DNA of 31,279 bases from positions 1-31,279 of IMG/VR virus record IMGVR_UViG_3300006917_000094; one strand, written 5' to 3'. Position numbers and translations under genes: made by a program. The notes under the pieces were generated by a model. That model did no database searches. It was not told the origin of the DNA and worked only from the letters and a program-made list of their open reading frames with translations. Within the stretch, counting starts at the first letter, position 1. Every line of letters starts with the position of its first letter. Origin of the DNA: a virus. This document shows positions 27,227 to 31,232 of the stretch, piece after piece.

Positions 27227-28246
27227 ATGGAAAAAGAAATCAAAGGAAGAGCCAAGGGGGGCGCTGCTTTAGCCGCAAAAATGACAGCAGAGCAACGGAA
27301 AGAGAAGGCCATGAAGATGGCTGCTGCAAAGAAGGAATTGGCTTCGCTTCCAAAAGTAACGCATCCAGGTACGCTCAAATTAATAGATCAAGAAATCCCA
27401 TGCGCGGTACTCGAAGATGGAACTAGAGTATTAACCCAGTCTGATTTTATGGAAGCAATGGGAATGTACTACAGCGGATGGATTGCAAAAAACGCACCAG
27501 AAAACTCTGCTATCGTTCCTGCAGAAATACCTCATTTTCTTGCACAAAAAAGTCTTATTCCCTATATTAACAGGCACTTAAGCCACCTGCAGAACGTTGT
27601 TCTTAAATACCGAACAGAGAAAGGTTCAGCAGCTCATGGAATCCGCGCGGAGATTATCCCAAGCATTTGTGATATTTACATTGATGCTGACAAGGAAGGA
27701 AATCTAGGCACAAGGCAAAAACAAATCGCACAAAAAGCAATGCTGTTAATGAGAGCGCTCGCTCATGTGGGGATTGTCGCGCTTGTTGATGAGGCCACTG
27801 GTTATCAAAAAGATAGGTCAAGAGATGCGCTTGCAAAGATTTTAGAAGCATATGTAGAAAAAGAATTGCAACCTTGGATTAGAACATTTGATTCTGACTA
27901 CTACGAGCAAATGTTCCGTTTGCGCGGCCTTCCATTTCCGCCAGAGCGCACCAATTATCGCCCAAGCTATTTTGGGCATTTAACAAACGACGTGGTATAC
28001 CGAAGGCTGGCACCTGGCGTATTGGCGGCGCTAAAAGAAGAAGCGCGAAAAGATGCGAGAAAGGGAAAATTATTCCAGCATTTGACAGCCGGATATGGAA
28101 GGCAAGAATTACTCAAGCACTTAGGGCTAGTAACAGGCTTAATGAAAATATCAAATGAATGGCCTGACTTTATGTTGAAATTAAATCAGGTATCGCCACG
28201 ATTCAACGCAACTTTACCGTTAGATATTGACGAGCAAGACCGCTAA
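27227..28246 (+). CDS. P63C-domain phage protein
   Basis: The 339-residue protein starts after a full AGGAGGT ribosome site. The N-terminus is Lys/Ala-rich and helical (GRAKGGAALAAKMTAEQRKE). Residues about 185-245 contain the P63C pattern VDEATGYQKDRSRDALAKIL, then AYVEKELQPWIRTFDSDYYE and MFRLRGLPF, followed by HLTNDVVYRRLAPGVLAALK. P63C proteins occur in phages and mobile elements and are predicted to bind DNA or regulate, but are not characterised well. This one is a one-gene unit with its own promoter and a UUCG-loop terminator, in the immunity region, so it could be expressed in the lysogen. Confidence 0.83.
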   Translation: MEKEIKGRAKGGAALAAKMTAEQRKEKAMKMAAAKKELASLPKVTHPGTLKLIDQEIPCAVLEDGTRVLTQSDFMEAMGMYYSGWIAKNAPENSAIVPAEIPHFLAQKSLIPYINRHLSHLQNVVLKYRTEKGSAAHGIRAEIIPSICDIYIDADKEGNLGTRQKQIAQKAMLLMRALAHVGIVALVDEATGYQKDRSRDALAKILEAYVEKELQPWIRTFDSDYYEQMFRLRGLPFPPERTNYRPSYFGHLTNDVVYRRLAPGVLAALKEEARKDARKGKLFQHLTAGYGRQELLKHLGLVTGLMKISNEWPDFMLKLNQVSPRFNATLPLDIDEQDR

Positions 28247-28265: not shown

Positions 28266-28290
28266 TAAGACCCGCTTCGGCGGGTTTTTT
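28266..28290 (+). terminator. UUCG-loop intrinsic terminator after P63C
   Basis: ACCCGC, a UUCG tetraloop and GCGGGT form a six-base-pair stem with a T6 run. This is a textbook strong terminator that separates P63C from the promoter and structured RNA downstream. Confidence 0.92.
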
Positions 28291-28321: not shown

Positions 28322-28349
28322 TTGCTTTTATCTTCGGAACGCCTATAAT
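28322..28349 (+). promoter_or_regulatory. Promoter of the structured RNA (TTGCTT, 16 bases, TATAAT)
   Basis: TTGCTT at 28322-28327 and a perfect TATAAT at 28344-28349 are separated by 16 bases. Transcription should begin at about 28355-28357, just at the left edge of the folded region. It has the same boxes and spacing as the P63C promoter. Confidence 0.75.
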
Positions 28350-28355
28350 TGAAAT

Positions 28356-28740
28356 CGTTGAGTAGCGAATCACCAGCGGCCAACAGACTCACAGCCGCCA
28401 AGCTTCAAGCCTCAATCCGGTAAATCCCAAGCGGTGCGGAAAGACAAGCGGAAGTAGACGCGGAAAGGTGAAAACAAAGGGGTGGCGCAAGCCCTGCTAG
28501 GTGTAACGAAAAGGATTGAAGTAGCGCACCAGGGTCGCTAAGGCGCTGGAGGTAACGGGAGAACCAAAGCCCCGTGACAGCCGGAGAGACGGCACAGATC
28601 GAGGCGTCAACCGGCCTGACTCAAAACGGTTGGGACAGCGGGAGAGACTGAATTGGTCGCGTTCCTACCGTCTAGCACCCCGCTACCCTGGGTAGATGCA
28701 GAGTATAAGACGCTGGCAGCCGGAAAGACGGCACCTTTTT
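28356..28740 (+). ncRNA. Candidate large structured non-coding RNA (or long structured leader)
   Basis: About 385 bases between a promoter and a hairpin-plus-U5 end have no open frame of note. By hand it folds into GCGGC/GCCGC (28376-28380 with 28394-28398) and a seven-pair long-range stem UCAAUCC/GGAUUGA (28412-28418 with 28513-28519) that encloses a GGC-GCAA-GCC hairpin (28484-28493). Then come ACGGG/CCCGU (28555-28575) and GCCG-GAGAGA-CGGC (28580-28593). A closing stem GGCGUC/GACGCU (28603-28608 with 28709-28714) encloses CAACCG/CGGUUG, AGCGGG/CCCGCU with inner AGAC/GUCU, and UACC/GGUA. Last is GCCG-GAAAGA-CGGC (28719-28732) before U5. I see no match to RNase P, tmRNA, 6S, or group I or II introns. 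It may instead be a cis-acting leader of the genes from 28754. Confidence 0.72.
28719..28740 (+). terminator. Terminal hairpin plus U5 of the structured RNA
   Basis: GCCG and CGGC around GAAAGA, with a possible GG/CC extension across a small internal loop, are followed by five T residues at 28736-28740. The stem is short for a strong terminator, so read-through into the next gene is likely. The same hairpin, with one base changed in the loop, occurs upstream at 28580-28593 where no U-run follows. Confidence 0.5.
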
Positions 28741-28753
28741 AGAGGGGGTTGAT

Positions 28754-28936
28754 ATGAACGCAACGGAAGAACTTAAACAGGACATACGAGAAGTTTTGAG
28801 CGCGGCTAACTGGCATATGGCAGTTGCACTGCGTTACCCAGCCGTATGCGAGGGTGACATAGATCAAGCCATCAAGTACCTACAGAGCGCTAAAAACATG
28901 CTTGGGAAACACTTTGAACTAGAGGCAGCAGCATGA
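28754..28936 (+). CDS. 60-residue helical protein
   Basis: The 60-residue acidic protein (MNATEELKQDIREVLSAANW, then ALRYPAVCEGDIDQAIKYLQ) is predicted helical and has a GAGGGGG ribosome site that begins right after the U-run of the structured RNA. It overlaps the next gene by four bases. No motif is recognised. It is the first gene of a rightward run that leads to the recombinase and SSB, so its expression depends on read-through of the terminal hairpin or on an unseen promoter. Confidence 0.65.
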   Translation: MNATEELKQDIREVLSAANWHMAVALRYPAVCEGDIDQAIKYLQSAKNMLGKHFELEAAA

Positions 28937-29193
28937 GCGCCCTAAATTATGTCCCGCTAAATGTCCGGCTAGAACGTCTACAGACAAGGCTTGCATTGGC
29001 TTTCGTGATTATTCTTGTCCTGCTGATTGGCCTAGTCTCTGCCTACGGCAACAAGATCGACGGCATCAGGGAGGTAAGTTGTCGCGCACCGCAAGATACA
29101 TCGCAAAAGTTGACGGTACGACTGGTAAATGTTGACGGTGTACTTGTGGAAGAGTGTCAATACTCCGCGCTAGGTTTCGGGAGGACAAATTGA
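28933..29193 (+). CDS. Small single-span membrane protein
   Basis: The 86-residue protein has one hydrophobic segment (about residues 20-38: LALAFVIILVLLIGLVSAY) after a basic N-terminal stretch (RLERLQTRL). A polar C-terminal domain with two cysteines (C50 and C75) follows. It overlaps the upstream gene by ATGA and is followed by a TTG-start ORF in a TTGA overlap. The likely topology is N-in with a periplasmic tail. Function is unknown; superinfection exclusion is one of several possibilities for such phage proteins. Confidence 0.65.
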   Translation: MSALNYVPLNVRLERLQTRLALAFVIILVLLIGLVSAYGNKIDGIREVSCRAPQDTSQKLTVRLVNVDGVLVEECQYSALGFGRTN

Positions 29194-29261
29194 TTTGCAT
29201 TCACCCTGAAATGACTTATGGCGCAGCATGTTTGCTGGCGCATGAACTTGGTAAAACTTGA
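29190..29261 (+). CDS. 23-residue TTG-start ORF
   Basis: A TTG at 29190 overlaps the TGA of the membrane protein gene and has GGGAGG five bases upstream. The product, MICIHPEMTYGAACLLAHEL plus GKT, ends in TGA at 29261, which overlaps a second TTG start. The good ribosome site supports translation; the length makes it tentative. Confidence 0.38.
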   Translation: MICIHPEMTYGAACLLAHELGKT

Positions 29262-29383
29262 TTACCGTACCAGCAAAGGTTAAGCACAAGTACATATCTT
29301 ATTTGGGAGACTGGAATGCTAACTTTGAAACAACGCAAACGGTTGATATTCGTAACCCGTCCAACCTTCTCCCAGCGGCTTAG
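29258..29383 (+). CDS. 41-residue TTG-start ORF
   Basis: A TTG at 29258 overlaps the previous stop as TTGA and opens a 41-codon frame (MITVPAKVKHKYISYLGDWN, then ANFETTQTVDIRNPSNLLPA). It closes with TAG four bases before the next ATG. Composition is protein-like with Tyr, Trp and Asp, better than the competing frame at 29316-29426 (an ATG with GGGAG but Arg-rich). No ribosome site is visible, so translation would rely on coupling. Confidence 0.4.
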   Translation: MITVPAKVKHKYISYLGDWNANFETTQTVDIRNPSNLLPAA

Positions 29384-29386
29384 ATC

Positions 29387-29554
29387 ATGGGTAAAGATCA
29401 GATTCGGGTTGATGTGGAGATTGTAAAACAGTGCAAACACTGTGCGCACTCAATAGGCACGCATGGCGGTGAGTTGTATTGCAGGATGTGGAAAATTAGA
29501 CCGTTTGAATTTTGCGGCAAGTGGATGAGAGAGCCGGGAATCGACGACGAATAA
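29387..29554 (+). CDS. 55-residue cysteine-rich zinc-binding-type protein
   Basis: An ATG at 29387 opens a 55-codon frame ending in TAA at 29554. The protein contains CKHCAHS and later YCRMWKIRPFEFCGKWM, which gives four cysteines in a C-x2-C and C-x9-C array suited to one zinc ion. This pattern is common among small phage proteins placed ahead of recombination genes. It has no strong ribosome site but starts four bases after the previous frame ends. Function unknown. Confidence 0.65.
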   Translation: MGKDQIRVDVEIVKQCKHCAHSIGTHGGELYCRMWKIRPFEFCGKWMREPGIDDE

Positions 29555-29567
29555 TAGGAGGTGGAAA

Positions 29568-30638
29568 ATGGGAATGCTTAAACCAGCAACAAATAAAATG
29601 GCCTACTCTAAAGTAGGTATTTACGGCACCGCCGGGAGCGGTAAAACGCGCACCGCAACGGAAATAGCGATAGGGTTGCATAAAGCGATCGGAAGCACCA
29701 AACCAATAGCGGCTTTTGATACTGAACCAGCCTTTAGCTTTGTCCTTCCATTGTTCCAGAAAGAGGGAATTGAATTGCTTGTGGCCGACGAAAGCCGCGC
29801 CCTAGTGGATCTAATGGATTTTATGGACGAAGCAGAGAAAGTCTGCGACATCGTTATTATTGATTCGATTACCCACGTTTGGCGAGATGCGCAAGAGTCT
29901 TATTTAACCAAGCTAAATGATGCCAGGAAGAAGCAGAACAAGCGCCCTTTACTAGCGTTAGAGTTCCAGCATTGGAGACCGATTAAGGCGACCTGGGCAG
30001 CGTTTACGGATCGCTTCCTATCTTCAAAGCTGCATGTCATCGTATGCGGTCGAGCTGGTAATGTGTACGAGTATCAAAGCAAAGACGATGGTTCAGGCAA
30101 GAAAGAGCTAATTTCTACCGGCACCAGAATGGCGACAGAAAAAGAACTTGGTTATGAACCTTCATTATTGATTGAAATGGTTATTAACCGAGAAGACGGA
30201 AAAACCATCAACACCGCCATTATTCAGAAAGATCGCGCAGACAAGCTAAATGGCCGTGAAATACCAATGCCAAATTATGCAAAGCTTAAACCGCATTTCG
30301 ACTTTTTGAACATCGGCGGTCAGCACTTTGAAAGTATGGACAAGCGCGACTCACAGCAGCTTTACGAAGGAGCAGAAGAAGGAACTTGGGATAGCGAGTC
30401 ACGAAAACGCACTGAATGGGCCGAAGAAATTAAAAGCCTGTTGATCTCGCATGGATTGGATGGAACCAGCACGGAAGCCAAGAAACAACGCAATGAGTTA
30501 TTGCTTGAAGTGTTTGATACTGGAAGTTGGTCGAAAGTTGAAAACATGCACAGCGAAAAGATCAAAGAAGGGTATGAGCGCATGAAAGCAAAACTTGAAC
30601 AAGTCAACAAACCAACTTTAGAGGTCGTCAATGGCTAG
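29568..30638 (+). CDS. Sak4-like RecA-fold ATPase (single-strand annealing/recombination)
   Basis: The 356-residue protein has Walker A GTAGSGKT at 20-27, a DTEP motif at 51-54 and Walker B DIVIIDS at 94-100, followed by [13 protein letters not shown]. This matches the phage AAA_24/Sak4-type RecA-like core, about 230 residues, with a charged helical C-terminus ([24 protein letters not shown]). Sak4 proteins are phage recombinases that work with an SSB; here the SSB gene overlaps by eight bases, which strengthens the call. An AGGAGG ribosome site precedes the start. Confidence 0.82.
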
Positions 30639-31050
30639 TGTAAACAAGGTAATTTTAATCGGAAATTTAGGCAAAGACCCTGAAGTGCGTTACATGCCAA
30701 GCGGCGAAGCAGTAACAAATATCAGCCTAGCCACTACTGACACATGGAAAGACAAGCAAGGAGAGAAACAAGAGCGCACCGAATGGCACAGGGTATCTTT
30801 CTTTTCAAAGCTTGCGGAGATTGCTGGCGAGTATCTTAAAAAAGGCTCGCCAGTTTATATCGAGGGCCGCTTGCAAACGCGGAAATGGCAGAATAAAGAG
30901 GGGCAAGACCAGTACACCACAGAAATTATTGCAGACCGCATGCAAATGCTAGGCGGTAAGTCTAGACAAGAAGAAAGCGAAACAAAGCCTAATTATAATC
31001 CGCCATCCCCCGATTATTTTTCTGACATAAAAGACGATATTCCATTCTAA
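30631..31050 (+). CDS. ssb: Single-stranded DNA-binding protein
   Basis: The 139-residue protein begins [20 protein letters not shown], then [37 protein letters not shown] and a C-terminal DDIPF acidic tip. This is a standard bacterial-type OB-fold SSB with an intrinsically disordered tail. The tip recruits replication and recombination enzymes. It overlaps the Sak4-like gene, and the two likely act together on phage DNA ends. Confidence 0.95.
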
Positions 31051-31052
31051 TT

Positions 31053-31232
31053 ATGACATTCGACGAATACGCAGAAACGCACAACCTACACCCAGGCAGC
31101 GGGCGGTATGAGGCATGCAAAGAGGCATGGTATGCAGCGATTAATGAAGTGCTGAAAGAATGGCGTAAACCATGGGGAATGTCTGAGGGTAAGGCGTTTA
31201 TAGAACGGTTGGAGAATATGGCTAACGTGTGA
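31053..31232 (+). CDS. 59-residue protein after SSB
   Basis: An ATG at 31053, two bases after the SSB stop, opens a 59-codon frame (MTFDEYAETHNLHPGSGRYE, then ACKEAWYAAINEVLKEWRKP) ending in TGA at 31232. It is helical and Trp/Lys-rich. No ribosome site is obvious, so it may rely on reinitiation. Function unknown. Confidence 0.6.
   Translation: MTFDEYAETHNLHPGSGRYEACKEAWYAAINEVLKEWRKPWGMSEGKAFIERLENMANV

Follow-up and report, generated by a model that had tools for sequence, protein, structure and literature searches.

A few HK022-like phages are known to achieve antitermination with an RNA that needs no protein, and ten put sequences have been described (PMC9378689). The cryo-EM structure of HK022 put shows a pseudoknot, in which positions 3–7 pair with 15–19 and positions 10–14 with 30–34, bound to the β′ zinc-binding domain (PMC9378689; PDB 7XUE). 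Another compact phage RNA, the theta ribozyme, is located downstream of tRNAs in phages (PMC10879173).

Here we describe a module of about 50 nt, repeated three times in a 31,279-base virus record of IMG/VR, the whole of which was analysed and is referred to as the window. An earlier note on this DNA, made from its letters alone, had described positions 28356–28740 as one large unassigned structured RNA. The best explanation for this region is an untranslated leader of a phage early operon that carries a tandem array of the module.

The leader and its surroundings

A P63C-type gene (27227–28246) lies upstream of the region and is closed, as the note had seen, by a strong intrinsic terminator on the plus strand, ACCCGC-TTCG-GCGGGT with a T-run (28267–28290; fold z −3.78). 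The candidate σ70-type promoter that the note proposed, TTGCTT-16-TATAAT (28322–28349, plus strand), is present and has a perfect −10, but its −35 has only three of six matches and the sequence stays below the threshold of the promoter scan; we infer a transcript start near 28356. No coding ORF lies on the sense strand of 28356–28740, again as noted earlier, and about 400 nt downstream of the promoter pass without a sense-strand gene before the first ORF, from 28754. The early operon that follows (28754–31232, plus strand; gene calls and PHROG matches) contains small ORFs, a Sak4-like annealing protein (29568–30638) and an SSB (30631–31050), and the array heads this operon beside a CI-type repressor.

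The note had counted at least nine stems in the 385 nt. As a single architecture these are not supported, as the whole region folds no better than dinucleotide shuffles (minimum free energy −125.6 versus −125.2 kcal/mol; z −0.07). Two long-range pairings were among them, UCAAUCC (28412–28418) with GGAUUGA (28513–28519) and GGCGUC (28603–28608) with GACGCU (28709–28714), all on the plus strand. Both complementarities exist, but the frequency of such helices is at chance level (three perfect helices of at least 7 bp in the 385 nt versus 4.0 expected in random sequence), and we rejected them as real structure. In the 5′ part of the leader (28356–28550, plus strand), no above-chance structure is supported, and a nucleotide search with these 190 nt found no homologue.

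A pseudoknot–hairpin module

A repeat search of the window revealed three GACAGCCGGAGAGACGGCAC-like copies, at 28576, 28634 and 28715, and this triple repeat exceeds what chance would give. When viral contigs were scanned with the pattern AGCCGGARAGACGGCA, at least 120 stretches matched; nearly all of those listed have G[AG]C directly before and A(C) directly after the match, and many have an upstream strand complementary to the bases preceding GAC. A second scan, with GRCGTGACNNNNNGGAGAGAC, left the arms of the hairpin stem (P2) free except for the closing pair and matched at least 125 places. In 100 of the 125 places listed, at least four consecutive pairs form across the loop, by way of many different stems, which strongly supports a conserved RNA hairpin; by eye, several of the remaining places fit a stem with one bulged base.

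The module is an H-type pseudoknot (helices P0 and P1) joined by a GAC linker to a hairpin with the invariant loop G[GARAGA]C. From 5′ to 3′, it consists of P0 (2–6 bp), 1–2 nt, the 5′ strand of P1 (typically ACGYC), 0–3 nt and the P0′ strand, followed by a loop of about 5–15 nt, which sometimes carries an inserted hairpin, P1′ (GRCGU), GAC, usually an A, P2 (4–6 bp, with an invariant closing pair) and then A(C). About ten unpaired bases are invariant. Across sites, no position in the flanks is clearly conserved, and the borders of the module are therefore sharp.

In copy 1 (28551–28595, plus strand), P0 pairs GGU (28551–28553) with ACC (28563–28565), P1 pairs ACGGG (28555–28559) with CCCGU (28571–28575), the linker GAC occupies 28576–28578 and P2 pairs GCCG (28580–28583) with CGGC (28590–28593) around the loop GAGAGA. 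This copy folds with a z score of −2.78 and matches our covariance model R1 at 28548–28596 with an E value of 1.3e-9, although it is itself one of the 50 sequences from which R1 was built. The other two copies, also on the plus strand, are degenerate: copy 2 (28606–28651) and copy 3 (28655–28735) are the third-best and second-best R1 matches of the window (E values of 0.42 and 0.098), and they fold no better than shuffles (z 0.23 and 0.13). By inspection, copy 2 has P0 GUC/GAC, P1 AACCG/CGGUU, GGGAC and a hairpin with the loop GAGAGA on a short P2 that includes G-U pairing, and copy 3 has P0 GGU/ACC, P1 GCGUU/GACGC with a hairpin insert, GGC, P2 GCCG-GAAAGA-CGGC and ACC. What the note had taken for a GNRA-capped hairpin is most likely this conserved hexaloop, GAGAGA or GAAAGA.

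Covariation, which the note had suggested as a check, supports the module across homologues. In 38 diverged sequences, 87.8% of cells pair, compared with 69.5% after shuffling, and the covariation score is 0.445 compared with 0.126; none of 500 shuffles reached either the score or the pairing, and sliding the partner columns by 1–3 positions lowered pairing to 25–48%. Because P1 is largely fixed by the search pattern in this set, it was tested in the first pool instead, where an exact 5-mer complement occurs within 40 nt in 26% of sequences versus 4.9% of permuted ones, formed by 13 different stems. P0, for which there was no selection, has a mean of 3.05 bp; exchanging 3′ flanks between sites gives a mean of 2.28 ± 0.13, and none of 1,000 permutations reaches the observed value. 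Of 34 sequences, 27 form its inner pair 4–15 and 30 its inner pair 5–14, using up to six types of pair. The pseudoknot has independent support. Neither the window nor about 35 related loci gave a match to Rfam 15 at the module, whether at the gathering threshold or at relaxed ones. The module is a real, covarying and widespread RNA structure on the transcribed strand that is absent from Rfam. The unassigned structured RNA of the note is genuine, but its large and ornate character is unsupported; the unit under selection is the module of about 50 nt, present three times.

A single large phage RNA of about 385 nt that acts in trans or forms particles, the first of two roles that the note had offered, could account for a promoter-like −10 in front, a hairpin and U5 behind and the 385 nt or so between them. 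We consider it highly improbable, as the region in its entirety neither folds better than chance nor has a homologue, and the module is used singly in most phages. Nor does the region match any family in Rfam 15, including GOLLD, ROOL and HEARO, whose landmarks the note likewise did not see. The hairpin–U5 end does exist, in that P2 of copy 3 precedes a U5 tract (28736–28740, plus strand), but the stem has only 4 bp and is set off by a 3-nt spacer, the terminator scan does not list the tract and a start codon follows 14 nt further on. It is a weak terminator at best, and the leader continues into the mRNA.

Distribution and genomic positions

The two pattern scans place the module in more than 200 viral contigs, a lower bound, and an exact match to its 22-mer core is present in 31 contigs from genomes of bacterial species, most of them Alpha-, Beta- and Gammaproteobacteria, with sphingomonad islands among them. 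The carrier phages are very diverse, with contigs of about 15 to 342 kb. Of 40 phage records examined with R1, 39 have one to three sites each, these 39 having been picked for already holding a match, and HK022 has none. A BLAST of the whole region against phages and plasmids recovered the 22-nt P2 core in two phages but nothing else. Relatives of Sak4 (L001–L003) and of P63C (L289–L295) have neither modules nor a homologue of the leader, and the array thus travels independently of its neighbours.

According to codon-usage gene calls, 144 of 193 sites are gene-free, whereas about 74% of random 50-mers fall inside genes. Of the 120 sites with both neighbours known, 95 have both running in the direction of the module. 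Some modules lie in the leaders of early, recombination or replication operons, as in the window, before RecT in an EBPR podovirus and L264, and next to genes for an ssDNA-binding protein and a DNA polymerase in L297. Others lie behind the major head gene (phiSHP3, L248, L313 and L315), form a triple array behind a capsid-like gene (L088) or precede terminase (Itty13, Morganella and Providencia phages and ctjtQ328). Many sites are in the middle of late operons, away from the operon start. The cis-acting leader that the note offered as its other role is favoured, but control of Sak4 and SSB in particular is too narrow, because what follows the module in other phages includes genes for recombination and replication, head genes, terminase and tRNAs.

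A tRNA lies within 60 nt of the module in 17 events, compared with 1.0 expected, always on the same strand, and in most of these cases the tRNA begins 4–13 nt 3′ of the module. One phage array of 14 tRNA genes carries only two modules and has a 640-nt gap before tRNA-His, with a module at the end of the gap (L134:1-3026). The tRNA setting argues against translation control. An ATG follows 8 nt after the end of some modules, and the loop GGAG resembles a Shine–Dalgarno sequence; we rejected a general role as a translation-start element, as many modules are followed by tRNAs or sit hundreds of nucleotides from an ORF.

Several other loci deserve mention. In L088 (1062–1310, minus strand), the three tandem modules have differing P2 stems and a good intrinsic terminator follows about 70 nt downstream, which makes this array a natural construct for testing readthrough. 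In Sphingomonadales (L252, L253, L256, L263 and L266), the module sits between a gene for a protein of about 320 amino acids that looks like a helix-turn-helix protein and an operon, common to L253, L256 and L252, whose proteins have no Pfam or NCBIfam match; this locus is possibly a mobile island. One contig matches the Rfam DUF2815 RNA (RF03084) at L078:2337-2396 on the minus strand, and its P2-core match does not overlap.

Three other functions come into consideration. The module could be an element of RNA processing or stability: as a stop for nucleases or a processing site, it would protect downstream mRNA or tRNA precursors at their 5′ ends, or capsid mRNA at its 3′ end, and so give segmental stability. 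Such a role would suit modules confined to narrow gaps between co-directional genes, frequently just after the major head gene, and modules 4–13 nt before tRNAs. We nevertheless judge it unlikely, given that a genome has only one to three sites, that two modules serve a whole array of 14 tRNAs and that modules are placed in early leaders; moreover, the invariance of bases in the loop and linker points to a specific conserved partner that recognizes them.

That partner could be a phage or host protein (an N-like antiterminator, a translational repressor or another RNA-binding protein) rather than RNA polymerase itself. The fixed hexaloop and linker and the leader positions are in line with a protein-binding site, and the hairpin loop of lambda boxB is likewise purine-rich. 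A single phage-encoded partner is unlikely, however, given the great diversity of the phages that carry the module, and the tRNA-adjacent sites exclude translational repression there. Overall, we find a protein-binding site unlikely, and a conserved host protein would be a possible form of it.

The module could also be a novel small ribozyme that cuts itself and thereby divides transcripts between phage genes and at tRNAs. It is a compact pseudoknot with about ten invariant unpaired bases, and theta ribozymes, which are HDV-like, are similarly intergenic and tRNA-adjacent in phages (PMC10879173). We regard this as improbable: the module is 5′ of tRNAs whereas theta ribozymes are 3′, and no Rfam ribozyme matches it. 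Cleavage has no evident purpose in an early leader, and the order of strands differs from that of the HDV fold.

Modules in enterobacterial leaders

In Escherichia coli UPEC85, the module lies between a pL-type leader, which is 98% identical to that of phi80, and kil/recE. The module or its flanking conserved domain is also present in phage 733R5, in Klebsiella ST101-KPC2phi6.3 and in prophages of MB06232, p10A and MLI106K4, in each case after a CI/LexA-type repressor and at the head of the leftward operon. HK639 has the two flanks of the UPEC85 leader as well, and in the HK639 record a putL-like antiterminator RNA is annotated between them. A 98-amino-acid ORF annotated as N in phi80 is retained in UPEC85 at 100% identity, which weakens the idea that the UPEC85 module is a clean swap for N; by eye, the start of this ORF does not look arginine-rich.

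A structured-looking companion domain (ACAACnAAAAGAGC ... GCUCUUUUnGUUGU) lies directly 3′ of the module in these leaders (L283:3925-4160, L286 and L287) and its UPEC85 sequence is conserved to about 88% in phages 733R5 and ST101-KPC2phi6.3. In Klebsiella phage KO-TP1 (L288:1880-2000) and in the phi80 leader (L285), short ORFs occupy the slot of the UPEC85 module and, judged by eye, may encode small N-like peptides.

Proposed function in antitermination

On balance, and with modest confidence, we favour the reading that the module is a new, widespread put-like cis-acting RNA that acts on the transcribing RNA polymerase. It would fold while leaving the polymerase and presumably bind the elongation complex, as put does at the β′ zinc-binding domain, and it would make the bound polymerase resist pausing and termination. 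Complete transcription of long phage operons and of untranslated tRNA arrays would then need no N-type protein, and tandem copies might raise the odds that at least one folds and loads. The covarying structure, a helix order and loop lengths like those of putL, the early-leader slot beside CI-type repressors, the small number of sites, their intergenic sense orientation and their association with tRNAs favour put-like action, as does the putL-like annotation of HK639 in the interval that matches the UPEC85 leader. Untranslated RNA is prone to Rho termination, and the tRNA setting therefore fits antitermination.

Several observations count against the put-like reading. Intrinsic terminators are not enriched within 400 nt downstream of the module (6 of 160 versus a background of 2.6%), and we rejected them as a sign of antitermination. 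The module has no put sequence signature and R1 is blind to HK022 put, many sites are in the middle of late operons and UPEC85 keeps the N ORF of phi80. H-type pseudoknots also serve many unrelated functions.

More tentatively, this uncatalogued class of RNAs, from tailed phages, prophages and islands mainly of Pseudomonadota, might be a general protein-free processivity element for RNA polymerase, of which put would be one distant form. If so, it would be an RNA counterpart of N/nut before early operons, capsid–tail junctions, terminase operons and tRNA arrays, and protein-free antitermination, with its fold topology shared by hundreds of unrelated phage contigs, would be a common strategy. 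Such a module could explain early operons that have no recognizable N gene. Because it is small (50 nt) and portable, one reporter assay suffices as a test.

Comparison with known RNAs

We found no earlier description of the module in the open-access literature, to which this search extended, so that priority is not certain. GOLLD, ROOL and HEARO are likewise noncoding RNAs of phages or bacteria that span a few hundred nucleotides, but each is one large conserved fold, whereas the leader in the window consists of repeated 50-nt modules. Lambda-type nut sites (boxA/boxB with N) resemble the module as early-operon leader RNAs with a purine-loop hairpin, but the module has a pseudoknot and does not seem to be tied to an N gene. 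Flank conservation across sites reveals no conserved boxA-like element beside it, and the PHROG matches of the sampled genes in the window include no N-like protein, although N proteins are small and divergent.

The only known RNA that we found with the helix order of the module, similar loop lengths and the same slot is HK022 put. We read putL in the HK022 sequence as AGACG AA CGGCG CGUCU UUAAACCAUG CGUCG G GAGC..., and both RNAs have the order P0, a short A-rich loop, P1, P0′, a loop, P1′ and a hairpin (PMC9378689), with a P1 of about 5 bp and the hairpin directly after the pseudoknot. Both are cis-acting phage leader RNAs that occupy the same slot (nutL/putL) in lambdoid leaders; a location downstream of early promoters, as for put at pL and pR, is found in the window and in the lambdoid leaders, whereas other sites are mid-operon. 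The two differ in sequence, as the conserved AACGGCG ... ACCAUGCGUCGG of HK022 and HK639 put is absent from the window with up to three mismatches allowed, and a search of HK022 with R1 did not find put. They also differ in structure: put has a long stem II (positions 36–72, 37 nt) with internal non-canonical pairs, whereas the module has a P2 of 4–6 bp and an invariant GARAGA hexaloop, and an A-U pair in the module takes the place of A9-G35 in putL. Finally, the module occurs in far more phages, in tandem, and also behind capsid genes and beside tRNAs. Because the sequence and stem II differ, we do not class the module as a member of put; we propose, by analogy of fold and position, that it may act like put.
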